Of a stretch of DNA of 46,397 nucleotides, positions 16,755-37,633 are shown one piece after another. The position numbers and the translations under genes were made by a program. Position 1 is the stretch's first letter, and each line of letters starts with the position of its first letter. Source of the stretch: a virus; IMG/VR virus record IMGVR_UViG_3300026089_000013, positions 1 to 46,397 of that record; one strand, given 5' to 3'. The notes under the pieces were generated by a model. The model searched no databases. It was not told the origin of the DNA and saw only the letters and a program-made list of their open reading frames with translations.

Positions 16755-17168
16755 CTAATGGACTCGTTTCAGAGTCGGTCCCGGCGTTTCAACTGATACG
16801 TTCGATTCGGATTGATGATTTGGTGCTAAACGAGAAGCGAGCTTGATCGCCAGAGCGGCAAGCTCCGAAGTCGACAGTTCTTCCAGATCGCCTTCCTGAA
16901 TCTTGAGCGTCGATGTCGGCCCAAACCCCGACCGATCCAGCACAGCCTTGGCCGCGGATACAGCCACCGGATACTCCGCGAATCTCATAGCTTCCCGCAG
17001 AGTATCAAACGCCTCACCACTGAGTTCTTGCAGCCGGATCTGCCCACGTCGCAGCGCGAGCACTCCCACCCCTTCCACATCTCGCTTGTTGGAACGTGAC
17101 CGTTCCTCCGTCGCGGACTCCTCCTTCGAGGGAAGAGGAGGCAGGTGCTCGTCAAAAATGTTGGTCAT
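16755..17168 (-). CDS. Terminase small subunit-like protein
   Basis: A 137-residue protein starting MTNIFDEHLPPLPSKEES. An open extension upstream to 17240 is judged non-coding because it runs into the previous gene. The core 'LQELSGEAFDTLREAMRFAEYPVAVSAAKAVLDRSGFGPTSTLK' followed by 'EELSTSELAALAIKLASRL' matches the helical domain of TerS-like proteins that precede TerL and recognise the packaging site. Evidence is mainly position and this pattern. Confidence 0.7.
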   Translation of the reverse strand: MTNIFDEHLPPLPSKEESATEERSRSNKRDVEGVGVLALRRGQIRLQELSGEAFDTLREAMRFAEYPVAVSAAKAVLDRSGFGPTSTLKIQEGDLEELSTSELAALAIKLASRLAPNHQSESNVSVETPGPTLKRVH

Positions 17169-17418: not shown

Positions 17419-17719
17419 GCCCATGTAAGAGTTACACGGTGAACGGTGCTTGGCATGTTCCTTGCTACGCGCTCGCGCCCGCGCGAATAATAATGTCAAG
17501 GGCTGTTCCGGTTGGCTTTGGGAGGCGGGTTGGGAATTCCGTGATTTAGCTGGCGGGTTTCGGTTTCCGGGAATAGGTGAAGTCAATTTGGGGAGCGGGA
17601 TTGGGGATGCGCGATGGACGAGCGACGCGAAACCCGGAACCCGCCGAACGAAATTGTAAGAACAGGATTGTAATTACAGGATGGTACTTACAGATATGTA
17701 TTACAGAATTAGTACGTGG
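17419..17719. other. Intergenic stretch with TTACA-type repeats
   Basis: About 300 bp without a convincing gene. The right part (17654-17715) repeats GTAATTACA/TTACAG motifs (AGGATTGTAATTACAGGA; TACTTACAGATATGTATTAC). Similar AT-rich motifs occur upstream of other promoters here and may be UP-like elements or protein binding sites. A perfect TTGACA at 17494-17499 (minus) lacks a -10 at the right distance. Confidence 0.4.
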
Positions 17720-17753
17720 AAATAAGCCGTGCCACCGGAGGTGATGGCACGGC
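17720..17753 (-). terminator. Terminator after the 88-residue protein gene
   Basis: Stem GCCGTGCCA / TGGCACGGC (9 bp) with a 10-nt loop, followed on the minus strand by TTATTT. It lies just after the stop at 17765. Confidence 0.65.
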
Positions 17754-17764
17754 CCTTGCTAGTG

Positions 17765-18031
17765 CTAGGGTTTACGACCCTTGGCACGATACTTGCTACC
17801 CTTGGGCAGGGGAGCAAGAGGCATGCCAATGCGGCGCAGGTAGCGGCGATGGGCGGCACGAATCTTGCTGCGCCGTGCCACTGCCATTTCTGTAAGCCGC
17901 AGGAACCGTGCCAAGGAGGCATTGTAGCGGTAGGTAGCCGCTGCAATGTCCGTGCCAACGGGGACCTGCGGGTATGCGGCCAAACCGGAGGGAGCCTGCC
18001 AACCACGAGCAAGAACGGTGCCAAGAGTCAT
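17765..18031 (-). CDS. Small basic hypothetical protein
   Basis: An 88-residue protein (MTLGTVLARGWQAPSGLAAY..) with a very basic second half ('MAVARRSKIRAAHRRYLRRIG', 'PKGSKYRAKGRKP'), suggesting nucleic-acid binding. It starts with a one-base overlap with a 27-codon ORF and is followed by a hairpin terminator. No family is recognised. Confidence 0.6.
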   Translation of the reverse strand: MTLGTVLARGWQAPSGLAAYPQVPVGTDIAAATYRYNASLARFLRLTEMAVARRSKIRAAHRRYLRRIGMPLAPLPKGSKYRAKGRKP

Positions 18032-18114
18032 TATTTACCTGCCTTTGTGCGCTTGAGCGCACTTACAACCTTGTAAGGGACGCGTGGGTTAGGATGCTGT
18101 TTACCGTATGCCAT
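18031..18114 (-). CDS. 27-residue basic peptide
   Basis: The short frame MAYGKQHPNPRVPYKVVSAL.. ends TAATG, so its stop overlaps the start of the next gene. The basic C-terminus (LKRTKAGK) and the coupling suggest it may be translated, but the ribosome site is weak. The larger open frame upstream looks non-coding. Confidence 0.4.
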   Translation of the reverse strand: MAYGKQHPNPRVPYKVVSALKRTKAGK

Positions 18115-18143
18115 GCCATTGACTACTGCACCATCCGTACCAT

Positions 18144-18178
18144 GTGTAGAGGTGTGCAACCCTGTGCTACTTCGTGTA
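18144..18178. repeat. GTGCA-type 10-bp phased array A
   Basis: GTGTA/GTGCA/GTGCT/GTGTA begin at 18144, 18154, 18164 and 18174, an exact 10-bp period. This is the most regular member of an array family found in the gaps of this region. Confidence 0.6.
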
Positions 18179-18221
18179 GGACCATGTTGCATTTTGGTTC
18201 CCGTGCCTACCAAAACGGAGC

Positions 18222-18254
18222 ACGGTAAACCATTGCGTATCAAGGGTTTACCGT
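18222..18254 (-). terminator. Hairpin after lipoprotein gene
   Basis: Perfect 10-bp inverted repeat ACGGTAAACC / GGTTTACCGT with a 13-nt loop just downstream of the lipoprotein stop. On the minus strand GCTCCGTTTT follows, a weak T-run. A second dyad TTTTGGT/ACCAAAA (about 18193-18216) follows. Either could be a terminator or an operator. Confidence 0.5.
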
Positions 18255-18259
18255 ATGTG

Positions 18260-18448
18260 TTACAGGATGGGCACAGCAGGACACGGCACGGGACTTGCAT
18301 ACGTGTCCACCTCCATACTTACACTTCCGTCAGGTAGGGCATATGCCCTCGGCTGGGTCGTGCAGATGTGTGCAGGCGCGACGGGCGAACTGCAAGAAGC
18401 GAGCCAGAGGCACGCCAAGACGATGATTACAATAATGGTATCCTTCAT
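18260..18448 (-). CDS. Small lipoprotein
   Basis: The 62-residue protein has a short signal peptide (MKDTIIVIIVLACLW) and a lipobox L16-A-S-C19 followed by Ser-Ser-Pro. The mature part would be about 44 residues, Pro/Thr-rich with three more cysteines. AAGGA lies 7 nt before the ATG. Signal peptidase II processing would place it on the outer face of a membrane. Known phage lipoproteins of this size either block superinfection (T5 Llp type) or are Rz1 spanin subunits. Absence of a neighbouring Rz or endolysin favours an exclusion or host-surface role, but this is inference. Confidence 0.7.
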   Translation of the reverse strand: MKDTIIVIIVLACLWLASCSSPVAPAHICTTQPRAYALPDGSVSMEVDTYASPVPCPAVPIL

Positions 18449-18475
18449 GGCACATCCTTTGCTAGGGTTACGTGT

Positions 18476-18592
18476 TTACCGAGTAAAAATTACACGGACG
18501 CCGCCGCCTGCCTTGAGCATAGATTTGATACGCTTTTTGGCAGGCTTTTTGCTAAACTCGGACCGCGTCATTACGATTGTGTATTTTGCCAT
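18476..18592 (-). CDS. 38-residue basic protein
   Basis: MAKYTIVMTRSEFSKKPAKK.. followed by a Gly-rich 'KAGGGVRVIFTR' end. It starts 4 nt after the stop of the 37-residue gene upstream and precedes the lipoprotein gene. Basic and beta/alpha-like; no family recognised. Coding is supported by codon pattern and tight spacing. Confidence 0.55.
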   Translation of the reverse strand: MAKYTIVMTRSEFSKKPAKKRIKSMLKAGGGVRVIFTR

Positions 18593-18596
18593 TGGC

Positions 18597-18710
18597 CTAG
18601 TTCTTGCTAGCGACCAGCACAAGCGGGATGTACTGAATCGGAGCATAGATGTCGTTACCGATTTTGTAATACTGGGTGATTACGATTTTGGTCGATGCCT
18701 TGTTTGCCAT
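18597..18710 (-). CDS. 37-residue hypothetical protein
   Basis: MANKASTKIVITQYYKIGND.. then 'IYAPIQYIPLVLVASKN', a compact beta-type peptide. It stops 4 nt before the next small gene. The stop is followed by the CTAG-GCC context seen after other genes here. No function can be assigned. Confidence 0.5.
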   Translation of the reverse strand: MANKASTKIVITQYYKIGNDIYAPIQYIPLVLVASKN

Positions 18711-18922
18711 GCCCTATAGATAAGCATGGGTCGTGCCACGTATAGAAGTGTGCAGGTCCGCGCAAGATCGTGCACGAGCTGTGTACAATTCTGGCGCCTG
18801 TGTTACATCTTGGGTGAACACAGACAGGAACGGCGCATGGCCTGGACCCGATACCCCGAGTCTGCAGCTTAAAATCAACCCACTGGATATCGCCGTTTGG
18901 CGACTTCCAGCGGGATTCTAAC
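18711..18922. other. Non-coding block C with GTGCA array and dyad
   Basis: No convincing gene. It holds GTGCA/GCGCA/GTGCA at 18750, 18760 and 18770 (period 10) and a 7-bp dyad CTGTGTT...AACACAG. It also has CGATACCCCGAGT and TTTGGCGACTTCCAGCGGGA. The last three elements recur in the same order in block D (19545-19690), so the two blocks are duplicates. Confidence 0.55.
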
Positions 18923-19180
18923 CTATAGTGCCATCAGGCACAAGCGAAAGCGCTTGTCGTCGGACAGGGCATCCCAGAGCGGAACAAGATTCGTGCCATG
19001 TTCCAGCAGATAATCGCGCATCCGGTCCTGCAAGATGGATGCCACTTCCTCATCCTCGACGTATGCATCTTCCGTGCCAAGACCGGCCGCGGCCTGGAGG
19101 TCGTGGCCGATAGACTGATACAAATCACATGCCATCTCGAGGAGGGCAGTATCGTAAATGTCAAATTGGTTATTCGTCAT
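18923..19180 (-). CDS. Acidic hypothetical protein
   Basis: An 85-residue, acidic, helical protein: MTNNQFDIYDTALLEMACDL.. with 'EDAYVEDEEVASILQDRMRDYLLEHG'. The start codon follows a UUCG-loop terminator and has GGGATG spacing typical of this cluster. No family recognised. Confidence 0.6.
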   Translation of the reverse strand: MTNNQFDIYDTALLEMACDLYQSIGHDLQAAAGLGTEDAYVEDEEVASILQDRMRDYLLEHGTNLVPLWDALSDDKRFRLCLMAL

Positions 19181-19189
19181 TGGTACATC

Positions 19190-19223
19190 CCTTGCAGAAA
19201 AGGGCCAGCCCGAAGGCTGGCCC
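19190..19223 (-). terminator. UUCG-loop intrinsic terminator
   Basis: Minus-strand stem GGGCCAGCC-TTCG-GGCTGGCCC (9 bp, UUCG tetraloop) followed by TTTTCT. It lies 8 nt after the stop of the 66-residue gene. Clear intrinsic terminator. Confidence 0.85.
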
Positions 19224-19231
19224 GGATTTTG

Positions 19232-19432
19232 CTAGTAGGAAGCCGCGCGGCGCGGACCGTTGACCGCCAAAACCAAATTTCCGGTTTTGCGTTCAAAAAC
19301 GGTAAGCACGGCGGCGTGGCGGACCCAGCGGTTCCGGCGCACGTTATGCAGGGCGCGTTCGGCCGTATGGCCCGGAGCGGGGATTGCAATCTTCGTGCCG
19401 TTGGTATGCGCCTGGATAACAAATTTGGTCAT
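19232..19432 (-). CDS. 66-residue basic hypothetical protein
   Basis: MTKFVIQAHTNGTKIAIPAP.. with 'NVRRNRWVRHAAVLTVFERKTGNLVLAVNGPRR'. Basic, beta-rich and possibly RNA/DNA binding. GAGGT precedes the ATG by 9 nt. A UUCG terminator follows. Confidence 0.65.
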   Translation of the reverse strand: MTKFVIQAHTNGTKIAIPAPGHTAERALHNVRRNRWVRHAAVLTVFERKTGNLVLAVNGPRRAASY

Positions 19433-19584
19433 GTAAGTTTTACCTCGAAGCTGGCGTAATTGCCGCCGACTAAGAGTGCATGGCCGATGCCAGCGCGAAA
19501 TCGTGCAACGATGTGCACTTCCGTAAAGGAAAGTGTGCCATTTCCGTACTTCGTGTTACATTTTGGTAGAACACGGTCTGGCAC
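19429..19584 (-). CDS. Possible 51-residue ORF coupled to the next gene
   Basis: An open frame with GTG start whose stop overlaps the next ATG (ATGA). Its second half 'TLSFTEVHIVARFRAGIGHALLVGGNYASFE' (read in parts) has a protein-like beta pattern. The first half coincides with the block D dyad, so the true start may be the GTG near 19515. Uncertain. Confidence 0.35.
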   Translation of the reverse strand: MPDRVLPKCNTKYGNGTLSFTEVHIVARFRAGIGHALLVGGNYASFEVKLT

Positions 19585-19720
19585 GACCGTTGCATATCGG
19601 GGATGGGATAGGACCGATACCCCGAGTATCGGGCATACTTCGGCTGGACGTTCCTATCCCCTTTTGGCGAGTTCTGGCGGGATTGGTGGCGATGGGCGTT
19701 AACGGATGGGCGGACGGAAT
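19503..19720. repeat. Block D: GTGCA array, dyad and duplicated elements
   Basis: GTGCA at 19503 and 19513, then the dyad CGTGTT..AACACG and CCGATA-CCCCGAG-TATCGG (an inverted repeat). TTTTGGCGAGTTCTGGCGGG follows. The last elements match block C (18711-18922) in the same order. Nothing coding is seen from 19585 to 19853. Confidence 0.5.
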
Positions 19721-19815
19721 TGCACGATCTGGCTCAAGTTGAGCCGGGGAGCCATCGTGATGCGCTCTAAAGGCGGGATTTGCGGGCGATTTCCAATCAA
19801 AACGAAAACTGAGCA

Positions 19816-19846
19816 GAGTGAGGTCAGCGCTCGGCCAACCTCACTC
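19816..19846 (-). terminator. Terminator after the 68-residue protein gene
   Basis: 9-bp stem GAGTGAGGT / ACCTCACTC with a 13-nt loop just downstream of the stop at 19854. On the minus strand TGCTCAGTTTTCGTTTT follows. Confidence 0.65.
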
Positions 19847-19853
19847 CGGTCCC

Positions 19854-20060
19854 TTAGCGGACCTTGACGACCCGACCCGCCTCCAGCGTCACGTATCCAT
19901 ACCAACGATGAGGCTGAGGGAAGTGAGGTCCCTCGACGTCAATCTCACCGTTGACTGGAACCGAGCCCAGTCCAGGCTGGAAGACCGTGACCGTGCGACC
20001 GGCGGCGACCGCGTCCTTCAGCTCTTTCTTCGACTTGAAATTCGGCCTGACGTATGCCAT
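19854..20060 (-). CDS. Small phage hypothetical (EGPHxPxPHRWY type)
   Basis: A 68-residue protein MAYVRPNFKSKKELKDAVAA.. followed by 'VEGPHFPQPHRWYGYVTLEAGRVVKV'. Short proteins with this 'F.tkk.LK.a...G..v.vf.pG' and 'EGPH.P.PH.WY' layout are widespread in phages; their function is unknown. The ATG at 20060 has GGAGG 6 nt upstream. A second in-frame ATG at 20072 sits 7 nt after the -10 box and would add MEVS. Confidence 0.75.
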   Translation of the reverse strand: MAYVRPNFKSKKELKDAVAAGRTVTVFQPGLGSVPVNGEIDVEGPHFPQPHRWYGYVTLEAGRVVKVR

Positions 20061-20079
20061 GCTGACCTCCATGCAGAGC

Positions 20080-20108
20080 ATTGTAACACAGAACGTGGTA
20101 ATTGACAA
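20080..20108 (-). promoter_or_regulatory. Promoter P2
   Basis: -35 TTGTCA (20108-20103), 17-bp spacer, -10 TACAAT (20085-20080). It drives the 68-residue protein gene. Confidence 0.7.
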
Positions 20109-20127
20109 CTACCAATTCTGTAAGTGT

Positions 20128-20343
20128 TCAGTCCACCCGGACTTCCTCGGCGTCGCAGATCTTCTCGAGATTGACGATTAGCGAATCATCTTCCACCTCC
20201 AAGCAAATGCCGCGGCCTCGAATATCGAAGCCGATGTCCCGGCGAGTCTTCTTGGCGACCTCCTCGATGCGCTCCTTCGTGTCCGCCTTGATCTTGACGT
20301 GAACGTGGTACACAACCCATGAAACGAGTTTCGTTTTCGGCAT
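20128..20343 (-). CDS. 71-residue hypothetical, leaderless start
   Basis: MPKTKLVSWVVYHVHVKIKA.. with 'DTKERIEEVAKKTRRDIGFDIRGRGICLEVEDD'. A small alpha/beta fold; no family recognised. The ATG is exactly 6 nt after the -10 box of P3, so the message should begin at or next to the start codon, with no room for a Shine-Dalgarno site. Confidence 0.7.
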   Translation of the reverse strand: MPKTKLVSWVVYHVHVKIKADTKERIEEVAKKTRRDIGFDIRGRGICLEVEDDSLIVNLEKICDAEEVRVD

Positions 20344-20349
20344 AAGAGC

Positions 20350-20378
20350 ATTCTACCACAGGTTCCCGGGAAATGCAA
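20350..20378 (-). promoter_or_regulatory. Promoter P3 (leaderless)
   Basis: -35 TTGCAT (20378-20373), 17-bp spacer ending TGTGG, -10 TAGAAT (20355-20350). The start codon is at 20343. Confidence 0.75.
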
Positions 20379-20500
20379 GCCATTTCATGTTTCGTTTTTC
20401 GTTGTTCATATTTCGTTGTTCGTATTGGGGCATTTCCAGAATCGCCCAGACCGATTTCTGTCCAATCCTCCCGACTCCCTCGAGGAAGAGGGAAAGAGGT

Positions 20501-20529
20501 CGGGCCAGTCCGTTTGCAGAACTGGCCCG
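20501..20529 (-). terminator. Terminator after the 78-residue protein gene
   Basis: Stem CGGGCCAGT / ACTGGCCCG (9 bp, 11-nt loop) followed on the minus strand by ACCTCTTTCCCTCTTCC. It lies 10 nt after the stop. Confidence 0.65.
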
Positions 20530-20538
20530 ATTCTTGCT

Positions 20539-20775
20539 TTAGGCAGCGACGCGCTCGCGAAGCACAGCGAGACGGTCCAGCCATTCACGAGTCGTCGAGA
20601 CGTCCGGATTGTTCTCCGGATTGTCCGTCGGGCAGAGGTCCTTGCTCGTTTCGATGAGTTCATCGAGCTCAGCAAGGAGCTTGCTGCGGTAGGCGCGAAG
20701 AGCCTGACGAACAATTTCGAGTTCGTATTCGTCGACGGCGATGTTGAAGCGTGCGGTCGGAACGTTGTTTGGCAT
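20539..20775 (-). CDS. 78-residue helical hypothetical, leaderless start
   Basis: MPNNVPTARFNIAVDEYELE.. then a long helix ('LRAYRSKLLAELDELIETSKD', 'TREWLDRLAVLRERVAA'), probably a helical hairpin. The ATG is 6 nt after the -10 of P4, implying a leaderless message. A terminator follows. No family recognised. Confidence 0.7.
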   Translation of the reverse strand: MPNNVPTARFNIAVDEYELEIVRQALRAYRSKLLAELDELIETSKDLCPTDNPENNPDVSTTREWLDRLAVLRERVAA

Positions 20776-20781
20776 AAGAGC

Positions 20782-20810
20782 ATTCTACCACAGAACATCG
20801 CCAGATGCAA
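20782..20810 (-). promoter_or_regulatory. Promoter P4 (leaderless), overlapping an inverted repeat
   Basis: -35 TTGCAT (20810-20805), 17-bp spacer, -10 TAGAAT (20787-20782). The -35 lies in the 3' arm of a perfect 11-bp inverted repeat GCCAGATGCAA / TTGCATCTGGC (about 20800-20836). Confidence 0.75.
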
Positions 20811-20846
20811 CTACAAAGATTGTAATTGCATCTGGCATATTTCGTG

Positions 20847-21185
20847 CTACTTCTTCCTCCGCTTCTGCCCGCGACGACCGGCGATCGTCATCTCGACCAC
20901 GCGGTCGGCGAGATGCTCCGCCAGCGTCTCGCGCGTCACGTCGCCGAGGTTCTCGACAGGCGTTTCGTTGGCCCGCTCGCCCTGAGCGTGATTTCGCTGT
21001 CCCACGGCGAGGGCGATGACCTCGTTCACCTCGTCGACGACCGCCTGTCCCCCGAGCCGATTCCCGAGGTCTGTCTCCCAGAGCTGGAACGTGGCGTCGT
21101 TGCCCTGCTTCAGCCGGAAGTTGATGTTGCGCGGGATCCGAATCACCGCCCGCAGCTTGACCTCCACCGTTACGAGTCCGTCCAT
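20847..21185 (-). CDS. 112-residue hypothetical protein
   Basis: MDGLVTVEVKLRAVIRIPRN.. then 'FQLWETDLGNRLGGQAVVDEVNEVIALAVGQ' and a basic end 'RRGQKRRKK'. The ATG has GGGAGG upstream. A 10-codon leader frame starts 6 nt after the promoter and overlaps the first codons of this gene. No family recognised; the tail may bind nucleic acid. Confidence 0.65.
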   Translation of the reverse strand: MDGLVTVEVKLRAVIRIPRNINFRLKQGNDATFQLWETDLGNRLGGQAVVDEVNEVIALAVGQRNHAQGERANETPVENLGDVTRETLAEHLADRVVEMTIAGRRGQKRRKK

Positions 21186-21202
21186 TTGACCTCCCTCATC
21201 AT
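21170..21202 (-). CDS. Possible leaderless 10-residue leader peptide
   Basis: ATG ATG ... TAA (MMREVKWTDS) begins exactly 6 nt after the -10 of P5. It overlaps the ribosome site and first codons of the 112-residue gene in another frame. It could tune initiation of the main gene. Confidence 0.3.
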   Translation of the reverse strand: MMREVKWTDS

Positions 21203-21208
21203 GAAAGC

Positions 21209-21237
21209 ATTATACCACAGTTTTAAACGGTTTGCAA
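21209..21237 (-). promoter_or_regulatory. Promoter P5
   Basis: -35 TTGCAA (21237-21232), 17-bp spacer with TTTAAAACTGTGG, -10 TATAAT (21214-21209), a full consensus. Confidence 0.8.
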
Positions 21238-21310
21238 CCACTAATTTTGTAATTGAAGAGGAAAAGAGCCTTGCGGACTGGGGCATCGAGGAGTTCATTG
21301 CACGACGCCT

Positions 21311-21335
21311 CTGGGCGAGTCCTCAGCTCGCCCAG
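21311..21335 (-). terminator. Hairpin downstream of the zinc-ribbon operon
   Basis: 9-bp stem CTGGGCGAG / CTCGCCCAG with a 7-nt loop. No clear T-run follows, so termination is possible but not certain. Confidence 0.45.
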
Positions 21336-21342
21336 AGGGAAT

Positions 21343-21399
21343 CTAAGAAATTACTCCGTCTTTCCGGAGCGTCAGCCCGTAGGCGATGGCATGTTTCAT
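21343..21399 (-). CDS. Possible 18-residue peptide
   Basis: MKHAIAYGLTLRKDGVIS starts one base after the stop of the 66-residue gene with GGCGGGG upstream and is followed by a hairpin. It is too short to be sure. Confidence 0.25.
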   Translation of the reverse strand: MKHAIAYGLTLRKDGVIS

Positions 21400-21400
21400 G

Positions 21401-21601
21401 CTAGGTCCCCGCCTCCTGTGCCTCCTTCAGGCATTTGTCGGTGAGCTCGAGCTCACGCTGGAGGTCGCCAATCGGCTGCCCCGCAGCTCGCTTCCGCTCA
21501 ATCCATCGCTCGACCTCCCAGCGATAGCGACGGACACAGAACTCGATCTGCGAGCGCATCTCCTCGTCGCAGTGCATCTTGATCGAGCGGTCATCACTCA
21601 T
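21401..21601 (-). CDS. 66-residue helical hypothetical protein
   Basis: MSDDRSIKMHCDEEMRSQIE.. followed by 'RRYRWEVERWIERKRAAG' and 'LQRELELTDKCLKEAQEAG'. Highly charged and helical, with two cysteines. Its ATG overlaps the stop of the zinc-ribbon gene (ATGA), so the two form an operon from P6. Confidence 0.65.
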   Translation of the reverse strand: MSDDRSIKMHCDEEMRSQIEFCVRRYRWEVERWIERKRAAGQPIGDLQRELELTDKCLKEAQEAGT

Positions 21602-21705
21602 CGGATCCACCTCATTCTCATCAGTTTGCAGATCAGGCACCGGAGCCCGTTCGGCGTAACCACGAATTCCGTTTCGGCGTGACAGGCGGCGCAGTGCTTA
21701 ACCAT
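21598..21705 (-). CDS. 35-residue zinc-ribbon microprotein, leaderless start
   Basis: MVKHCAACHAETEFVVTPNG.. then 'LRCLICKLMRMRWIR'. Two CxxC pairs (C5/C8 and C23/C26) form a minimal zinc ribbon followed by a basic tail. The ATG lies 6 nt after the -10 of P6. It overlaps the next gene by 4 nt. Such tiny ribbons often bind nucleic acid or RNA polymerase, but the partner is unknown. Confidence 0.65.
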   Translation of the reverse strand: MVKHCAACHAETEFVVTPNGLRCLICKLMRMRWIR

Positions 21706-21711
21706 GAGAAC

Positions 21712-21740
21712 ATTCTACCACAGAATTCTGCCGGATGCAA
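21712..21740 (-). promoter_or_regulatory. Promoter P6 (leaderless), overlapping an inverted repeat
   Basis: -35 TTGCAT (21740-21735), 17-bp spacer, -10 TAGAAT (21717-21712). The -35 lies in the arm of the inverted repeat GCCGGATGC / GCATCCGGC (about 21730-21768). Confidence 0.75.
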
Positions 21741-21776
21741 CTACAAAGATTGTAATCGCATCCGGCACGATTCTTG

Positions 21777-22103
21777 CTAGAACTTGATGTCGTCGTCGTA
21801 GCGATGCGGAGCCGCATCATCAGCCGAGATAAAAGCCGACGACTGCTGCTCCCGCCGTGCCTGATAGTCCCGCTCGCGGATGCGATCAGCCAGCTTCCGG
21901 TCGGAGTCGTTGATCTGCTCTTGCAGATAACGACGGACGCCCATCGCCATGACCTCCTCGATGAAGTCCTTGGCCTCCTTCAGGCCAACCGACGGGACCG
22001 GCTCGAGGATGACCTGACCGTTGATGCCTTGACGGACCTCGTAACGGTTGTGACCGAGCGTCCGAACCGACTTGATGGCCTCGATGAAGTTAATCGCGTT
22101 CAA
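21777..22103 (-). CDS. 108-residue hypothetical, TTG start
   Basis: MNAINFIEAIKSVRTLGHNR.., with 'YEVRQGINGQVILEPVPSVGLKEAKDFIEEV', then a charged helix rich in Arg/Glu. The TTG at 22103 is chosen because GGAGG lies 5-6 nt upstream; the ATG at 22127 is inside the -10 box. No family recognised. Confidence 0.65.
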   Translation of the reverse strand: MNAINFIEAIKSVRTLGHNRYEVRQGINGQVILEPVPSVGLKEAKDFIEEVMAMGVRRYLQEQINDSDRKLADRIRERDYQARREQQSSAFISADDAAPHRYDDDIKF

Positions 22104-22125
22104 TGCCCACCTCCAATGTAAGAGC

Positions 22126-22154
22126 ATGATACCACAGTTTTAAACTGGATGCAA
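22126..22154 (-). promoter_or_regulatory. Promoter P7
   Basis: -35 TTGCAT (22154-22149), 17-bp spacer with TTTAAAACTGTGG, -10 TATCAT (22131-22126). A GTGCA pair lies about 65-80 bp upstream of the predicted start. Confidence 0.75.
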
Positions 22155-22183
22155 CTACTATCTTTGTAATCCGGGAGTTCTCT

Positions 22184-22290
22184 GTGCAGGATTGTGCAGG
22201 AGGATCGCCAATAGCCCTAGTATCCGTGGTATCGATGATCGTGATTTCTATCCCATCCTACGACCTCAGGCGAGGAACGTAGGAAACGGG
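22184..22290. repeat. Block E: GTGCA pair plus conserved CCATCCT..CGTAGGAAA element
   Basis: GTGCA at 22184 and 22194. The rest (TATCCCATCCTACGACC, CGAGGAACGTAGGAAA) recurs in blocks F (22890-22945) and G (23955-24000). In E the two halves can pair (CCTACG / CGTAGG). Confidence 0.55.
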
Positions 22291-22309
22291 CCAGCCCGGA
22301 GGCTGACCC
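22288..22309 (-). terminator. Terminator-type hairpin after first Ala-rich paralogue
   Basis: Minus-strand stem GGGTCAGCC-TCCG-GGCTGGCCC (9 bp with one wobble), a short loop, shortly after the stop at 22322. It is similar to the UUCG terminator at 19202-19223. Confidence 0.6.
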
Positions 22310-22321
22310 GTCCCTTGCAAA

Positions 22322-22693
22322 CTACGCGCCAGCTTCGTCGCCGCTGACCCGCTCCGCCGCAGCCTGCGCCCGAGCGAGCGCAGCGGCCGCAGCCGCCTGC
22401 GCCTTCTCGGCGATGGCGTTCGCGCGCGCCACCCGCGCTTCGGCCTTCTCGCGCGCCTTGTCGGCCTTTTCCTGTGCCCGCGCAGCCGCCACGGCGGCCT
22501 TTTCCGCGTCATCGGGCACCTGCCCGAAGCCCTCCGGCACAAGGCAGGACACCTGGATCGTGGCGGGGACCACGCCGCCGATGAACAGGCTGTTGGTGAT
22601 GTTGACCGACCCGCGGTTTCCGGGCAGGCGGAACGAGCTGTAGATGCCCTTGTGGGTCTTGTGGAACGTCAGCGTCTGCAGAATGGTATCCAT
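22322..22693 (-). CDS. Ala/Lys-rich protein, paralogue 1
   Basis: A 123-residue protein. Residues 1-60 form a beta-type domain ('LTFHKTHKGIYSSFRLPG', 'RGSVNITNSLFIGGVVPATIQV', 'LVPEG'). The remainder is an Ala/Lys/Arg/Glu helix (AVAAARAQEKADKAREKAEA..). It is clearly paralogous to the gene at 23070-23477. The alanine/lysine tail recalls histone-H1-like tails but is also compatible with a coiled coil. Function unknown. Confidence 0.75.
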   Translation of the reverse strand: MDTILQTLTFHKTHKGIYSSFRLPGNRGSVNITNSLFIGGVVPATIQVSCLVPEGFGQVPDDAEKAAVAAARAQEKADKAREKAEARVARANAIAEKAQAAAAAALARAQAAAERVSGDEAGA

Positions 22694-22758
22694 ACACACC
22701 TTTCAGCGGCCTTGCCGCTTGTTTGTTAGGTCGCGAACCGTGCGCCCAACGTAAGACC

Positions 22759-22787
22759 ATTCTAGCACGGTGCCCGCCAGAATGCAA
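22759..22787 (-). promoter_or_regulatory. Promoter P8
   Basis: -35 TTGCAT (22787-22782), 17-bp spacer, -10 TAGAAT (22764-22759). At the +1 position, where five siblings have ATG, this copy has ACG. Confidence 0.75.
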
Positions 22788-22815
22788 GTACCAAAATTGT
22801 AAGATGCTAGAATGT

Positions 22816-22945
22816 GTGCAGGTCTGTGCAGAATCGTGCAGATTTGCCGAGGTCCAGGAGCCGATAGCCCCAATATCCGAGGAGGGAAGAACCCGACCTC
22901 CCATCGCATCCTCGCGGTCGTCGCGAAGATCGTAGGAAGTCGCCT
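22816..22945. repeat. Block F: triple GTGCA array plus conserved element
   Basis: GTGCA at 22816, 22826 and 22836, exact 10-bp period, located about 65-90 bp upstream of the P8 start point. It is followed by CCCCAATATCCGAGG and the CCATCGCATCCTCG..CGTAGGAAG element shared with blocks E and G. Confidence 0.65.
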
Positions 22946-23035
22946 TGCGACTAACGGAAATCAGTGGCACGGAACTTGCATACGCTCAGGCCGTCCCTGC
23001 AAGCTCCGTGCCCGAAATCCTCGTCTGCAAGGACC

Positions 23036-23057
23036 GGGCCAACCCGAAGGTCAGCCC
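23036..23057 (-). terminator. UUCG-loop hairpin after second Ala-rich paralogue
   Basis: Minus-strand GGGCTGACC-TTCG-GGTTGGCCC (9 bp with two wobbles), just after the stop at 23070. No strong T-run. Confidence 0.6.
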
Positions 23058-23069
23058 GGTCCCTGCAAA

Positions 23070-23477
23070 CTACATGCCCGCCGTCTCGCCGGTCTGCTCG
23101 CCGGACGTGGCACCGGACTTGCTTGCCGCCTCCTGCGCCTTGGCCGCCCGAGCCAGAGCCGCTTCGGCCGCTGCCTTGGCCTTGTCGGCGATGGCCTGCG
23201 CCTTCGCCGCCCGCGCCTCGGCTTTCGCCTTGGCCTTTTCCGCGCGCTCCTGCGCCTTCGCCGCCGCTGCCGCCGCGCGGTCGACGTCCGCCGGGACCTC
23301 GCCGCTGCCCTCCGGCACGAGGCCGCTGACCTGGATGGTCTGCGGGATGACCCCGTCGACGAACATCTTGTTGGTGATGTTGACCGAGCCGCGAACGCCC
23401 GCGAGCCTGAACGAGCTGTAGATGCCCTTGTGGTTCTTGTAGAACGTGAGGGTCTGAACGCCGTTGTTTTCCGCCAT
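23070..23477 (-). CDS. Ala/Lys-rich protein, paralogue 2
   Basis: A 135-residue protein with the same layout as the gene at 22322-22693: 'LTFYKNHKGIYSSFRLAG', 'RGSVNITNKMFVDGVIPQTIQV', 'GLVPEG', then a long Ala/Lys helix (AAAAAAKAQERAEKAKAKAE..). About 60-70 percent of the N-terminal residues match by eye. The ATG at 23477 has AAGGAG 6 nt upstream. The frame is open far upstream but that part is intergenic. Function unknown. Confidence 0.75.
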   Translation of the reverse strand: MAENNGVQTLTFYKNHKGIYSSFRLAGVRGSVNITNKMFVDGVIPQTIQVSGLVPEGSGEVPADVDRAAAAAAKAQERAEKAKAKAEARAAKAQAIADKAKAAAEAALARAAKAQEAASKSGATSGEQTGETAGM

Positions 23478-23497
23478 GCTAATCTCCTTTTCGGCCG

Positions 23498-23542
23498 TTA
23501 TTGGCCTGCCGTTGTTTGCCGACGCGTCCCGTGCGCCAGCAT
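23498..23542 (-). CDS. Possible leaderless 14-residue leader peptide
   Basis: ATG (6 nt after the -10 of P9) to TAA encodes MLAHGTRRQTTAGQ and ends 20 nt before the start of the paralogue 2 gene. The same position upstream of paralogue 1 has ACG in place of ATG, so it is conserved in position but not in start codon. Confidence 0.3.
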   Translation of the reverse strand: MLAHGTRRQTTAGQ

Positions 23543-23548
23543 GAGAGC

Positions 23549-23577
23549 ATTCTACCACAGTTTTTGCTGGATTGCAA
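23549..23577 (-). promoter_or_regulatory. Promoter P9
   Basis: -35 TTGCAA (23577-23572), 17-bp spacer, -10 TAGAAT (23554-23549). An 8-bp inverted repeat CACCAATT / AATTGGTG lies just upstream of the -35. Confidence 0.75.
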
Positions 23578-23648
23578 GCACCAATTTTGTAAGAATTGGT
23601 GGCACGATTCTTGCTATCCAGGAGCGCAATGCAACCGTGGGCAATGCA

Positions 23649-23673
23649 GTGCAACATCGTGCTAAGTCGTACA
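23649..23673. repeat. GTGCA-type array H
   Basis: GTGCA, GTGCT, GTACA at 23649, 23659 and 23669, period 10, about 110-130 bp upstream of the P9 start point. Confidence 0.5.
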
Positions 23674-23741
23674 CTTCGCACGCCGAGCTCGTCCCTGACC
23701 GTGACCCACGGTTTGACAGGGTTCAGGCACACTACTTGCAC

Positions 23742-23761
23742 CGGAAGGGGAAACTTCCGGC
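23742..23761. other. Short perfect hairpin
   Basis: CCGGAAG-GGGAAA-CTTCCGG (7-bp stem, 6-nt loop) in the P9-P10 gap. It may be a regulatory hairpin in the P10 transcript. Confidence 0.35.
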
Positions 23762-23815
23762 AGCCGCTATGCCCTGCCGTATACCGTTGACCAGCTTCGA
23801 TTGCCATAGGAAAGC

Positions 23816-23844
23816 ATGATACCACAGTTTTAAACCGTTTGCAA
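23816..23844 (-). promoter_or_regulatory. Promoter P10
   Basis: -35 TTGCAA (23844-23839), 17-bp spacer with TTTAAAACTGTGG, -10 TATCAT (23821-23816). An ATG follows 8 nt later and opens a frame through the intergenic region, but no gene is convincing there. Confidence 0.7.
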
Positions 23845-23867
23845 CTACCAATATTGTAAGTGGGAGG

Positions 23868-24070
23868 CTCCTAGCATAGATCGTGCCAATTGGATAGGAG
23901 CCCGACATCGCCCTGCCCGATATTGGGGCATTGAGGTCACCGAAATCCCCGACTTCCTATCCCATCCTCCCAACTAATCGAGGGAACGTAGGAAAGGTCA
24001 AGGGCCTCTAATTACAGATATGTAAGATGTGCAGAAGTGTGCAATTTTGTGCAATCTGCATCGTTTTATT
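23868..24070. repeat. Block G: conserved element and triple GTGCA array
   Basis: It contains CCCGATATTGGGG, then CTATCCCATCCTCCC..CGAGGGAACGTAGGAAA (shared with E and F). GTGCA follows at 24029, 24039 and 24049 (period 10), next to an AATTACAGATATGTAAG motif also found near 17680. Confidence 0.55.
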
Positions 24071-24262: not shown

Positions 24263-24616
24263 GGGTTACGCCGGTTTAGTGATTTAAAATTGGGTTACAA
24301 GTGCTGATGTAACCCAATATTTTGCGATTGGGACGCTTGCTGAACGGCCGTAAGTGCTTTGTTTGCAGCCACTTACAGCCATCGAGGATTTATCCCTATT
24401 TCCCTATTCTTATATATGTTACATAGGTTACTAGGTTACGTGGCACAGTATAGGGCGATACATGACCGGGCATATTTCTGGCAACTGTTGAGAACCGCAG
24501 TGTAACCTGTATACCTATTGCAAGTTCAAAGACGCTAACCTGTTGCATCTAGAGCACTTAGAGCCCTCTCGGAAGGCAAAAAACGCGCGTAACCCGACGT
24601 AACCCATATGTAACCC
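24263..24616. other. GTAACC repeat cluster, candidate replication origin
   Basis: Nine GTAACC/GGTTAC hexamers in 355 bp. Plus-strand copies begin at 24309, 24502, 24589, 24599 and 24610; minus-strand copies at 24264, 24293, 24426 and 24434. The last three plus copies are spaced 10 and 11 bp. An AT-rich tract (24390-24425) lies in the middle. The cluster precedes the primase/helicase genes. TGGGTTAC / GTAACCCA at 24291-24316 is also a perfect 8-bp dyad and could act as a terminator. Confidence 0.45.
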
Positions 24617-32946: not shown

Positions 32947-33482
32947 TAATAGTTCCTCACTTCCCAGAAGAGTGTGTTGCGGTTCGGGATGTTCCCAACG
33001 TTGACCGAGAAACAGGTAAACTCAATGGTAGCGTCAGGGAAAAGTTCGAAGAAGGCGTCAACATCATCTCGAGATGATGGGTCCATGAATTCATTAATAA
33101 GCACAAGGGTCTCGAGAGAGCTACGATGCCTAAGGATTCCCGCGGCCATCGCCTTTCGCATAGGAAGATGACTTGCTCCAATATATCCTTCGAGGCCACG
33201 GAAAGTTCTACAAATTTCACCCTGGATGGTTTGATGCTCGTCTGGACAGACGTCGTCCATAGTGAAAGTGCGCCCCGCGATTCGCCATATCGTGACAGTC
33301 TCCCAAAAACTGTCGCGTGGTACACGCTCCCATGTCCCTCCGCCAGCACGATGTTCACGGAAACCGAACTCTTTGGCGTCTGAAGCCCATGCCTCATTTG
33401 GATCCCACCATAGACGCGTCGCGTTACCGAGAAGTCCTTGTTTCCACTTCTCGAAGAACTCTCTCTTCGAGCTTATCTTCAT
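32946..33482 (-). CDS. Hypothetical protein in the modification operon
   Basis: A 178-residue protein, start MKISSKREFFEKWKQGLLGN, whose ATG overlaps the thymidylate-synthase-like stop (ATGA). It contains 'FTMDDVCPDEHQTIQGEICRTFRGLEGYIGASHLPMR' and 'TLVLINEFMDPSSRDDVDAFFELFPDATIEFT'. No family is recognised. Its coupling to the synthase suggests a linked role. Confidence 0.65.
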   Translation of the reverse strand: MKISSKREFFEKWKQGLLGNATRLWWDPNEAWASDAKEFGFREHRAGGGTWERVPRDSFWETVTIWRIAGRTFTMDDVCPDEHQTIQGEICRTFRGLEGYIGASHLPMRKAMAAGILRHRSSLETLVLINEFMDPSSRDDVDAFFELFPDATIEFTCFSVNVGNIPNRNTLFWEVRNY

Positions 33483-34579
33483 GCCTTGGCAAGATGTGCG
33501 CTGAGCCGCCGTGACATCCATTCCTGGCCAGCGACGATCCAGTCACAATCTTGGTCGCCCGTCTCCAAGCATTCCAGCGCCTTACGATAATGACTTCCAT
33601 CCGATGATCGTTGGCGGTATGCCTGATGTGCTTGGAGCATCACATACCAGTTAACAGCATAACGATATCGGAAATGAAGTGCTTCATCCATCCCATCCGC
33701 ATCGGCAGCTTTCAAAATCAGCTCGATGTTGCGGTCCACCTCTTTGATCGTGCCTTGAATGGGATAGACCCGAAGTCGTGGTGTCTCGATGTACTTCTTG
33801 CCAATCGTACTGGAATCAGTCACATCAACTTTAGATCCCTCTTGATATGGCTGATGGATGAAACCACTGTATTCCATCATCTCGGCAAGACTGATGACGC
33901 CCTTCAAGATATCAGCGTATGCGTGCCAGTTCGTACTCACTTGATACATACGGCCCACTGGACATTCAATCCAATTTGCCATGTATTCGAGGAGCATCGA
34001 GAAATGGACTGCGTTCGCTCCGTAGGCACCCCAGATGATGTCATTGGAACGGCAGAAGATTGTCAGGTCCAAGGACCCATCCAGATTTCTCTGGAAGGTG
34101 GTGATGGTATTACATGGCACATCCTTGAACGGCTTCCCAAGATCTTTCTCCGAGTCCCACATCTGTAGGACACAGCGACGATCATTGGGATCTTTGGTCA
34201 AGCGCTCGGCGATGACTTGGAGTTGGTCCCTCGAAGAGCCAAGGGAGAACCAATCGCGCCATCGCTTCCCGTAAGCACCGTGCAAGATCTTACCGTCGTC
34301 CGAATACTGTGCCATCTGCTTCGCATACTTGATGAGCGAAGCGACATCGTTGCGGCCTGCCAGCATCCACAACGATTCATAGAGGTGGAAGAAGGGGTTG
34401 GCATCCCGCTGAGGCCAGAGCATGACTCGCTCGGATGGCCTGTTGTAGACCGTAGTGACTGGATAGGGCGTCACGTAGACCGGTCCATTGCGACTCTCGC
34501 GATACACAGCTTCCTGTCGCAGTAAGCGCAAGGCTCGAGGAAGAGCTTCGTGGACGTTCCTAACCTCAAGAACTTTCAT
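33479..34579 (-). CDS. Thymidylate synthase-family protein (candidate dUMP hydroxymethylase)
   Basis: The 366-residue protein has the ThyA core: 'NRPSERVMLWPQRDANPFFHLYESLWMLAG', 'LHGAYGKRWR', the double Arg 'DRRCVLQMW', catalytic Cys156 in 'DVPCN', and 'SLDLTIFCRSNDIIWGAYGANAVHFSML'. Asn189 in GANA aligns with the Asn that selects dUMP in thymidylate synthases; dCMP hydroxymethylases have Asp there. The usual 'RSxDxxLGxPFN' is changed to RSNDIIWGAYGAN, a variant seen in phages. It could make dTMP or 5-hydroxymethyl-dUMP. Neighbouring hypermodification-type genes favour the second. Overlaps 4 nt with both neighbours. Confidence 0.85.
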   Translation of the reverse strand: MKVLEVRNVHEALPRALRLLRQEAVYRESRNGPVYVTPYPVTTVYNRPSERVMLWPQRDANPFFHLYESLWMLAGRNDVASLIKYAKQMAQYSDDGKILHGAYGKRWRDWFSLGSSRDQLQVIAERLTKDPNDRRCVLQMWDSEKDLGKPFKDVPCNTITTFQRNLDGSLDLTIFCRSNDIIWGAYGANAVHFSMLLEYMANWIECPVGRMYQVSTNWHAYADILKGVISLAEMMEYSGFIHQPYQEGSKVDVTDSSTIGKKYIETPRLRVYPIQGTIKEVDRNIELILKAADADGMDEALHFRYRYAVNWYVMLQAHQAYRQRSSDGSHYRKALECLETGDQDCDWIVAGQEWMSRRLSAHLAKA

Positions 34580-35424
34580 CGTCTCCTCAAGTCTGGAGTC
34601 CCCGGCTTGTAGCCGTTGTCGGATGCTGTCAGTTTGATGTGGTTAGGGATTCCCTCGCGCTTCCATGCCTCGAGCCACGCGATGTTGACATCTTTTCTTT
34701 TCGCCATGACGCCAACCTGCGAGTCACTTTCTTTTTCGACCACTTTGACGTATGATGGAAAGAGAGTACGGAGCTGCTCGGCTGCGGTCGCTTGGAGGTC
34801 TGCAGTTCGATACAGTGAGCATCCACCCTTTGCACCACTGCCTCGTTGACTCCAACAATAGTGGTATGCCACGCGATTTGGATAACCCATACAGAGAAGT
34901 GAAAGCGTAACGTAGAAATCTTCCATGACGGGGAGGACATCGAATCGGAGACCGAGATTACGATAGACCTGTGCATCGAAGAAGTGAGCATTGTTGACCC
35001 GAATGCAATCGGCGGATTGAAGCTCGATGTTCTGATTGCCCTGTCGTGCTGAAATACCGCCGTGCATGAAGCCCGAGTCAAGCTGGTCACTAATCCATTG
35101 GAACATTGGATCGATATCAGTAACTCGCTCCAAGCAGCCCGCTCCTCCAAGCGTAGGGATGGGTCGGTAGGAAAAATACATGTCGTCGTCGAGCATGACG
35201 ACACCGCGGGTTGGACTGTTCTCCAGAATGAACTGACGAGTCGGGCCAATCCCGTCGTGCGGGCATTCCATCACCTCGGAATTGGCGTAGTTCTTGTAGT
35301 GGAAGGCTTCTTTGGATGGACAAACCACGATGGGCTTGCGAGATGAAAACTTCTTCATCTCATTGATCGTGATATGTTCCATTGAACTGCGTCCCCGAGT
35401 TGGGATGAACACAGTTAGATCCAT
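34576..35424 (-). CDS. Glycosyltransferase, TET-associated (TAGT)-like
   Basis: The 282-residue protein has a GT-A layout: 'LTVFIPTRGRSSMEHITINEM', 'KPIVVCPSKEAFHYKNYANSEVM', 'GIGPTRQFILENSPTRGVVMLDDDMYFSYR' (nucleotide-sugar-binding DDD at 79-81). This is followed by a region that checks an acceptor ('SADCIRVNNAHFFDAQVYRNLGLRFDVLPVMEDFYVTLSLLCMG'). The pattern matches the TAGT family that glycosylates oxidised/hydroxymethylated pyrimidines in phage DNA. It overlaps the thymidylate-synthase gene by 4 nt and lies 11 nt after a second, divergent DDD glycosyltransferase. Confidence 0.7.
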   Translation of the reverse strand: MDLTVFIPTRGRSSMEHITINEMKKFSSRKPIVVCPSKEAFHYKNYANSEVMECPHDGIGPTRQFILENSPTRGVVMLDDDMYFSYRPIPTLGGAGCLERVTDIDPMFQWISDQLDSGFMHGGISARQGNQNIELQSADCIRVNNAHFFDAQVYRNLGLRFDVLPVMEDFYVTLSLLCMGYPNRVAYHYCWSQRGSGAKGGCSLYRTADLQATAAEQLRTLFPSYVKVVEKESDSQVGVMAKRKDVNIAWLEAWKREGIPNHIKLTASDNGYKPGTPDLRRR

Positions 35425-35435
35425 TATGATAACCT

Positions 35436-36176
35436 CTATCGCTTCATCTTCCAGTTCGGTATATCTATTCCGTTGACTTTTCTGGTTCCTTCACAACTGA
35501 CGTATCGGGAGAACCGTTGGAGGACGATGTCGCGGGTTCGATCAAAGTCTTCTTGTCGTATCGTTCTGGAGCTAGAATCCGCAGAGGTATCAGCAGACCC
35601 TTTCTTATCAAATCCGATAAACTTGACCCGTCCGACGGCACCGTCGAGTTCGCGGTGAGCGCATGTTCGATATACATCTTCCGCTCGTACAAGTCGTTCG
35701 TCGATGAAACGCGAGGGGTCTTCGGCGCTGATTCCGATGTTTCCTCCGCCATGGATTAGCCCCCAAGTTCTGGCGTAGCCATCACCGAGCCAATCTCTTC
35801 GGGAGGTATTGCAGAAGCCCGCATGAGTGGTCTTGGTGACATCTAAGCATTCACGAGCGACACGAATTGCGATGGGTAAATCGATAAAGCCGTCCATCCC
35901 AACAAAGGTCTTCGGTAAGAGGTCGTCATCCATCTTGAAGAAATAGGGGAATCCAGCCTTCGCTGCGGCACGATAGCACGCCGCACACTGAGGACCGTTT
36001 CCACGACCTCCCTCGACTACGGTAATATTACGGATAGCATGATAGAACTGCTCGTGTATGCCTACGAACTCAGGGTCTGCGACGATAATCACCTCGAATG
36101 GAGCAGTCTGGTAGCTCATCAAGCTCTTCAGCGGAGGCTTGCGACGGGACGGAATGCAGATAACCGTATCAAGCAT
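35436..36176 (-). CDS. Second DDD-motif glycosyltransferase
   Basis: A 246-residue protein with 'DTVICIPSRRKPPLKSL', 'FEVIIVADPEFVGIHEQFY', 'VVEGGRGNGPQCAACYRAA' and 'FPYFFKMDDDLLPKTFVG' (DDD at 83-85). It is a GT-A-type enzyme related in layout to the TAGT-like neighbour but clearly divergent. Two such enzymes in tandem suggest successive sugar additions or different acceptors. It overlaps the HMUDK-like gene by 8 nt. Substrate unknown. Confidence 0.65.
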   Translation of the reverse strand: MLDTVICIPSRRKPPLKSLMSYQTAPFEVIIVADPEFVGIHEQFYHAIRNITVVEGGRGNGPQCAACYRAAAKAGFPYFFKMDDDLLPKTFVGMDGFIDLPIAIRVARECLDVTKTTHAGFCNTSRRDWLGDGYARTWGLIHGGGNIGISAEDPSRFIDERLVRAEDVYRTCAHRELDGAVGRVKFIGFDKKGSADTSADSSSRTIRQEDFDRTRDIVLQRFSRYVSCEGTRKVNGIDIPNWKMKR

Positions 36177-37032
36177 ACGCTGTCCGAGGAGCTACGAACT
36201 TTCGTTTCATCGACTCACCGCTGCGAGCGCGACAATACTTGTCCCACTCGCACATCCAGTGCTCTACCTCCCTCATTTCCCACGTGTGCCATTTCTGCGG
36301 CCAGTACTGTTCGTCCCGGCTCATGGCGAGAATCTCACGCATCAGGCTGAGCATGGTTCTCTGATCGCTGGGACCAGTGCCAAAGCGACCGACATGCCCA
36401 TCCACAGTCCAGCTGAGTCCTCGAGCACAGCCGGGACCAGCGTTCGCCCATGTGAGTATATCGGGCGCGACTGATAAGAACGGTGTCCAGCGCAGATCAG
36501 AGACGATCTCATAGGCCATGAAACCGCCCAGATAGTTCAGGGTCGTGAGATCCCGCCACGCGGCTTCGAGGGAGGGTTTGGCCTTCCACTTTTCAACCAT
36601 CGGAGGAAGTCGTGGAAAAGCCTCATCGATGCACTTGAGGACACCCTCTAGTTTTGGGTATCCATCATAGCCTTTGATGATGTAGGCGCCGGTGACTATC
36701 GGAGCAACTCCTCGGAGACGGCGTTCAGCTTCTTGGGAATCCCACTTGTCAACCAGCAGATCTACAATGAGCTCCCCGGTCTCGATTCGGTTGAACCATC
36801 GAAAGGCCACGGTCGCACGAGTGGCTGCGAGCTCGTCCAGATGCTTACGGACAGTCTCACGGAACCACCGAGTTGTCTTGTCGTGCTCTCTGTGAACGTG
36901 ACAGAACCGCCACTGACGGAATTGCTTGTCAGTAGTCCATGGAGGTGGCTCACCGGCTTCACGCTTCAGCTTGATATTGTAGCGTTCACGAGCTGTCTCG
37001 AAGAAGCCGGTGGCGTATTTAAGTTCCAGCAC
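36169..37032 (-). CDS. 5-hmdU DNA kinase helical domain / aGPT-PPlase-like protein
   Basis: A 287-residue protein. 'ERYNIKLKREAGEPPPWTTDKQFRQWRFCHVHREHDKTTRWF' (in parts) is the hallmark of the HMUDK_hel/aGPT-PPlase family ('R..i...r..g...PWT.D.il...rF.nv.Re.Dr.t.w'). 'LGGFMAYEIVSDLRWTP', 'GPGCARGLSW' and C-terminal 'REVEHWMCEWDKYCRAR' fit the same family. Members phosphorylate or pyrophosphorylate 5-hydroxymethyluracil in DNA as the entry step of thymine hypermodification. No P-loop is seen here. It is embedded in an overlapping operon with nucleotide and glycosyl enzymes. Confidence 0.7.
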   Translation of the reverse strand: MLELKYATGFFETARERYNIKLKREAGEPPPWTTDKQFRQWRFCHVHREHDKTTRWFRETVRKHLDELAATRATVAFRWFNRIETGELIVDLLVDKWDSQEAERRLRGVAPIVTGAYIIKGYDGYPKLEGVLKCIDEAFPRLPPMVEKWKAKPSLEAAWRDLTTLNYLGGFMAYEIVSDLRWTPFLSVAPDILTWANAGPGCARGLSWTVDGHVGRFGTGPSDQRTMLSLMREILAMSRDEQYWPQKWHTWEMREVEHWMCEWDKYCRARSGESMKRKFVAPRTAYA

Positions 37033-37633
37033 CCATCACCTCAGCATACATTCGATAGTGAACAAGGAAGAGTTCTTCGGCTGACTTCCAGGACCACGGA
37101 GACCACGGCCCGATTAGATCGATTTCTGATTGGCTGAGATTGGGATAGTCAGGATGGTCAATGACAAATCCAGGACCGAACCCTTTCCTTCCCTCGAATA
37201 GGACTAGGATGCGGTCTGCGTAGCTAACGAATTCGTGTTGGTCAACAGGGCAGCCGAACTTTCTGTAGATCTTGGCTTGTATGATATCTTCAAGAATACG
37301 ATAATTCTCGAAGATCTTGGTCTGCTTCAGCCACTTAGTGACGTCACCGACATACGCTTCTGCGGCGTCATGTAGAAGAGCCTGACGAATAATACTATGA
37401 TGATTAACGGCAGAGTCTGGGCCTCTAGCAAGAAGCTCAGCAACAATTCGCGCAGCATAGACGGAGTGCTGCGCGACAGAAATCGGTCGCTTGGTGTGAC
37501 CAGCGAAACGATTACAAAGGGCGAGAGCGTGAGCTATGTCTTCAATGCGGATTAAGTCAGGCTCGAGACGGCACACGTCTAGCTCAAGCCCGGAATACGT
37601 CCGGATGAGCGTCTGGGTCGCCGGGCCGGGCAT
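37019..37633 (-). CDS. HD-domain nucleotide phosphohydrolase (YfbR-like)
   Basis: The 204-residue protein has an HD site: 'ISVAQHSVYAARIV' (H56), 'ALLHDAAEAYVGDVTKWLKQ' (H88, D89) and a distal 'SYADRILVLFEGRKGFG'. It resembles 5'-deoxynucleotidases/YfbR-like enzymes that dephosphorylate dNMPs. In phages with modified bases such enzymes remove the normal nucleotide from the pool. It is adjacent to, and overlaps by 14 nt, the HMUDK-like gene, so this role is plausible here but unproven. Confidence 0.8.
   Translation of the reverse strand: MPGPATQTLIRTYSGLELDVCRLEPDLIRIEDIAHALALCNRFAGHTKRPISVAQHSVYAARIVAELLARGPDSAVNHHSIIRQALLHDAAEAYVGDVTKWLKQTKIFENYRILEDIIQAKIYRKFGCPVDQHEFVSYADRILVLFEGRKGFGPGFVIDHPDYPNLSQSEIDLIGPWSPWSWKSAEELFLVHYRMYAEVMGAGT

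Follow-up and report, generated by a model that had tools for sequence, protein, structure and literature searches.

Short GTGCA units repeated at a spacing of exactly 10 bp form eight arrays in the small-gene region of a soil phage, and we consider it probable (roughly 0.6) that these arrays are multi-copy direct-repeat operators, bound cooperatively and regulating nearby promoters. The window, i.e. the whole stretch of DNA analysed, is the 46,397-base record IMGVR_UViG_3300026089_000013. Cooperative binding of a protein to one DNA face had been proposed in the initial annotation, and the operator signature behind that proposal is present (phase, varied spacers and promoter distances), while protein binding, its cooperativity and an effect on transcription are what we infer from the phasing, from the consensus of the units and from how far the arrays stand from promoter-like elements.

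Every convincing gene of the window lies on the - strand. The phage encodes a terminase, a portal protein, a primase-helicase and polymerase A, and the small-gene region precedes the genes for TerS (16755-17168) and TerL. It also encodes a thymidylate-synthase-like protein, a 5-hmdU kinase (HMUDK) and a glycosyltransferase-like protein, whose genes lie at 33479-37633 together with one for a nucleotide phosphohydrolase, and this combination of synthase-like, kinase and glycosyltransferase-like genes makes hypermodified thymidine DNA likely. Two of the small genes, 22322-22693 and 23070-23477, are paralogous and have Ala/Lys/Glu-rich tails, with homologues in the relatives L189 and L288 and, weakly, in L253/L258. 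GGTTAC/GTAACC words are repeated at 24265-24590, beside the primase-helicase gene, and are possible origin iterons; GC skew gave no origin signal at the arrays. The only near copy is the 68,720-base contig IMGVR_UViG_3300005459_000006, part of which matches the window at 100% identity wherever the two were compared and is therefore uninformative as a comparison; the phage collection yielded no relatives at the DNA level.

The exact pair GTGCA-N5-GTGCA occurs seven times (at 18360, 19503, 22184, 22816, 22826, 24029 and 24039), always on the + strand, against a mean of 0.04 and a maximum of 1 in shuffles of the window and a mean of 0.01 in shuffles of the region, so that the spacing first reported is far beyond chance. 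Among all pentamers at all distances from 5 to 40 in the window, GTGCA at distance 10 ranks first (Poisson ~1e-13). The word itself is not enriched (90 observed, 89 expected), and hence it is the phasing that constitutes the signal. The exact units have 20 neighbours with at most one mismatch at distance 10, where 0.8 are expected, and 10 at distance 20, with three or fewer at every other distance. This bears on the 22 units originally listed as GTGCA, 16 of which are exact; the remaining six (18144 GTGTA, 18164 GTGCT, 18174 GTGTA, 18760 GCGCA, 23659 GTGCT and 23669 GTACA) are one-mismatch variants, though in phase, and they are counted as part of the pattern because one-mismatch neighbours also fall in phase. 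Spacers differ from unit to unit within the arrays, which argues against slippage. That coding does not account for the arrays, as had been stated, is confirmed, since a 10-bp period holds no reading frame and the arrays are mostly non-coding. The well-supported genes of the region are all on the - strand, and the unit is therefore read on the sense strand as TGCAC, with the consensus Y-TGCAC-R and free spacers. A literature search found no report of GTGCA at this spacing.

Seven of the eight arrays are intergenic (18144, 18750, 19503, 22184, 22816, 23649 and 24029), and all are given here on the + strand. Array A (24029..24053) has three exact units; reading on along the sense strand, one meets TTACATATCTGTAA and, at 32 bp, TTGACC. 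Array D (23629..23673), which precedes the promoter for gene 23070-23477(-), consists of five in-phase units (ATGCA/GGGCA/GTGCA/GTGCT/GTACA), a single exact copy among units that each have at most one mismatch, against a background rate of 0.0225 per position. The three exact units of array B (22816..22840) lie 33 bp upstream of the -35 of gene 22322-22693(-), whose promoter module (22739..22815, - strand) reads as an CTTACAATTTTGGTA element followed by TTGCAT-N17-TAGAAT. The two exact units of array C (22184..22198) precede TTGCAT, the -35 in the promoter for gene 21777-22100(-), by 34 bp, and array E (19503..19517) has two upstream of gene 19232-19432(-), with the last sense unit 15 bp ahead of the sigma-54-like element TGGCATCGGCCATGCA. 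The distance of 65-90 bp between array and start, given originally for two cases, holds for these last two (start near 22100 for array C; ATG at 19432 for array E). In array F (18750..18774; GTGCA/GCGCA/GTGCA) the last sense unit stands 16 bp before the sigma-54-like site 18738(-), and in array G (18144..18178; four in-phase units, GTGTA/GTGCA/GTGCT/GTGTA) the final sense-strand TGCAC begins 16 bp ahead of another such element. Array H (18360..18374), two exact units, does lie inside a small lipoprotein gene as described, ORF 18260-18448(-), where a lipobox (LASC) is present, and the two copies of GTGCA do not share a reading frame.

Among the repeated elements of the region other than the arrays is a set of small-gene promoters of the form TTGCA-N17-TA(g/t)aAT, in which TTACAA...TTGTA adjoins the -35. 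The distance from array to -35, read by eye, is ~33 bp in two or three arrays (B and C, and A if measured to TTGACC). That arrays are present at only some promoters of the region counts against the operator reading; in its favour, the -35/-10 pair beside array B also precedes the homologous gene in L189, L288 and L255, where there are no arrays. About nine sense-strand promoters (TTGCA-N17-TAGAAT/TATAAT) can be seen at 20100-23860, most with an ATTACAA-N3-TTGTAGT-like dyad upstream, and some of these fold together with the -35 into long hairpins, as at 21722-21774. Generic scans of sigma-70 promoters and of terminators gave counts at about the shuffle level (6 vs 3.5) and at the shuffle level (7 vs 7.0), respectively.

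If the arrays are operators, several copies of one DNA-binding protein would sit on successive helix turns along one face of the DNA, each contacting one YTGCACR unit, and bound copies would help each other so that single sites too weak alone could act jointly, array D being an example. The most likely outcome would be that, during one stage of infection, the activity of the small-gene promoters is raised or lowered. In kind the arrays are ordinary, since operators with helical phasing have precedents; it is their number, wording and company that are unusual. The Apl protein of phage 186 binds direct repeats one helix turn apart, cooperatively and as monomers (PMC7498355), and operators of excisionase-type winged-helix proteins contain several copies per site, at promoters, with weak units that work only jointly (PMC7498355, PMC11963761). 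While the arrays share with Apl, Cox, Xis and RdfS operators the direct repeat spaced by one helix turn, they comprise eight scattered sites with the core word GTGCA, as opposed to att and one switch region in Apl-type systems. The 68.7 kb contig, itself perhaps incomplete, has no match to HTH_17 at E<=1 and none to Phage_integrase (tyrosine type), and for this reason the arrays are not filed in the Apl family. Boxes of the OmpR/PhoB family, such as that of CpxR (GTAAA-N5-GTAAA), have the same architecture of 5-bp half-sites in direct repeat with a 5-bp spacer, but the arrays differ from them in word and in having up to five units, and the 68.7 kb contig gave no match to Trans_reg_C (OmpR-type). 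A host regulator of this type is a possible binder; more generally, the binder may come from the host or be a phage protein, either divergent or encoded outside the contig.

The arrays are interleaved with a second signal. Between 17,400 and 24,600 (7.2 kb) there are 27 near-consensus sigma-54 -24/-12-like sites (cluster 17451..23740, both strands; TGGCAC[GA]-N4-TTGC[AT]), where shuffles give 0.17; the remaining 38 kb of the window has none. The sites have the form TGGCACGATTCTTGCT, and the sigma-54 consensus weights were set by hand. The two site halves are found 17 times with the correct spacer of 5, and no other spacer brings them together more than once. In statistical terms this cluster is a stronger signal than the arrays. 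The last sense units of arrays E, F and G stand 15, 16 and 16 bp before a sigma-54-like -24 box on the sense strand, with a p of 0.0014 that is post hoc, the sigma-54 threshold of the composite test having been picked after seeing the data, and in five of the eight arrays a + strand site lies 66-130 bp downstream. Many of the sites are inside genes or run against gene direction. Pseudomonas phage YuA reportedly has sigma-54 promoters with -24/-12 elements; the elements here, unlike those, are packed into 7 kb, occur on both strands and are often located within genes or oriented against them. No paper on clusters of sigma-54 sites in phages was among the matches listed in the literature search. 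The relatives L254/L255, L262 and L288 keep sigma-54-like sites upstream of TerL. In L288 (1785-1965), four tandem 34-bp palindromes, TGGCACGGCATATGCTATAGCATATACCATGCCA-like and ~49 bp apart, lie upstream of small genes; their half-site resembles the sigma-54 element, and as the sites there form palindromes the element is possibly no promoter in that phage. Two related soil phages, G025 (L242/L243/L186) and G024 (L244-L246), have sigma-54 promoter-like sites, of which several, for instance those at 29473 and 37157 in G025 and at 9212 in G024, are followed by an RBS and a start codon.

Absence from related phages, named at the outset as a result that would refute the observation, largely holds. 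We retrieved 80 TerL relatives and scanned 13 further HMUDK-carrying records, the nearest with identities of 53-57% in TerL and 52-59% in HMUDK. Among the closest relatives only L267/L268 show GTGCA in phase, as one pair, and the arrays are therefore rejected as a conserved signal of the phage group. Similar arrays are found in unrelated phages (L020/L038, L146, L175/L176, Collinsella-type prophages, G024 and G025), and numerous contigs, both viral and bacterial, contain exact GTGCA triplets. In the Collinsella/Coriobacteriales prophages L128, L148, L174, L336, L405 and L421, GTGCA units spaced by 10 bp make up two blocks, and in L128 and L148 the distance from the array to TerL, downstream of it, is 1.3 kb. 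Among 90 proteins flanking arrays at 25 unrelated loci, only HTH_3 repressors were shared (4 of 90), which rules out a common partner gene. An arbitrary control word was also frequent as 10-bp tandem triplets in viral contigs (40 matches vs 71 for GTGCA), so that most triplets represent tandem repeats or chance and a universal GTGCA system can be rejected. Given these control counts and the unshared flanking families, we claim no common system; near relatives without arrays, and unrelated carriers without a shared neighbour family, point to a lineage-specific one.

The company of the sigma-54-like sites raises another reading, which we regard as rather unlikely, that the arrays are UAS enhancers for a host NtrC-type sigma-54 activator, the phage using or soaking up sigma-54 and this activator. 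It draws on the confinement of the 27 sites to the same 7.2 kb, on the pairing of their halves at the correct spacer only, on the three arrays at 15-16 bp and the five with a downstream + strand site, and on G024 and G025, which were found through their GTGCA arrays and also carry sigma-54 promoter-like sites. GTGCA is, moreover, the NtrC half-site. NtrC enhancers, however, are inverted repeats (TGCAC-N7-GTGCA), whereas all eight arrays hold GTGCA in direct repeat at 10 bp; many sites are inside genes or point against them; the palindromes of L288 would amount to convergent 'promoters' and suggest a different binder; and the 68.7 kb contig gave no match to Sigma54_activat (bEBP), though a host bEBP could serve. 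A broader form, in which the 7 kb region is a dedicated sigma-54 control or decoy zone and the phased arrays load some activator, is decidedly unlikely. If true, host sigma-54 holoenzyme would drive the small genes and antisense RNAs or, alternatively, the cell would be stripped of the holoenzyme and its activator.

Other candidates look to the phage's own proteins. The ribbon-helix-helix (RHH) protein encoded at 37634-37843 matches Pfam Antitox_RHH (1e-7) and an Arc-like PHROG, and proteins of this kind often bind tandem sites, so the arrays might be its operators; its gene is distant from the arrays and is kept (35-38% identity) in relatives that do not have them, and we think it very unlikely to be the binder. 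The arrays could instead be pac/cos packaging sites wrapped by a TerS ring, with one HTH contact per helical turn; the SF6 TerS is a ring of HTHs that binds cooperatively (PMC4737164). The position of the small-gene region ahead of TerS and TerL would suit such a role, and among 36 unrelated records with GTGCA triplets, which are fragments and partly duplicated, 16 have arrays within 5 kb upstream of TerL, where 5.8 are expected. The control word shows a similar excess near TerL (3 of 12 vs 1.2), however, and TerL proximity was set aside as an array-specific signal. Eight arrays over 6 kb are also unlike a single pac site, and the TerS gene, too, is conserved in relatives without arrays, so that neither RHH nor TerS is favoured as binder and a packaging function appears very improbable indeed. 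That the arrays are a functionless leftover of tandem duplication, or chance, we find barely credible: the tandem repeats of the control word show that such structures arise in viral contigs, but here the spacers vary, the loci are eight and separate, only GTGCA and only distance 10 stand out, and degenerate units stay in phase.

That the arrays overlap so crowded a set of sigma-54-like sites, itself well outside chance expectation, hints at a sigma-54-linked programme of the phage, of which, to our knowledge, there are few examples. Under the operator reading that we prefer, if one protein reads the arrays, they would define a small regulon, made up of early genes without known functions and governed by a simple helical-phase code, which could be tested with synthetic promoters.
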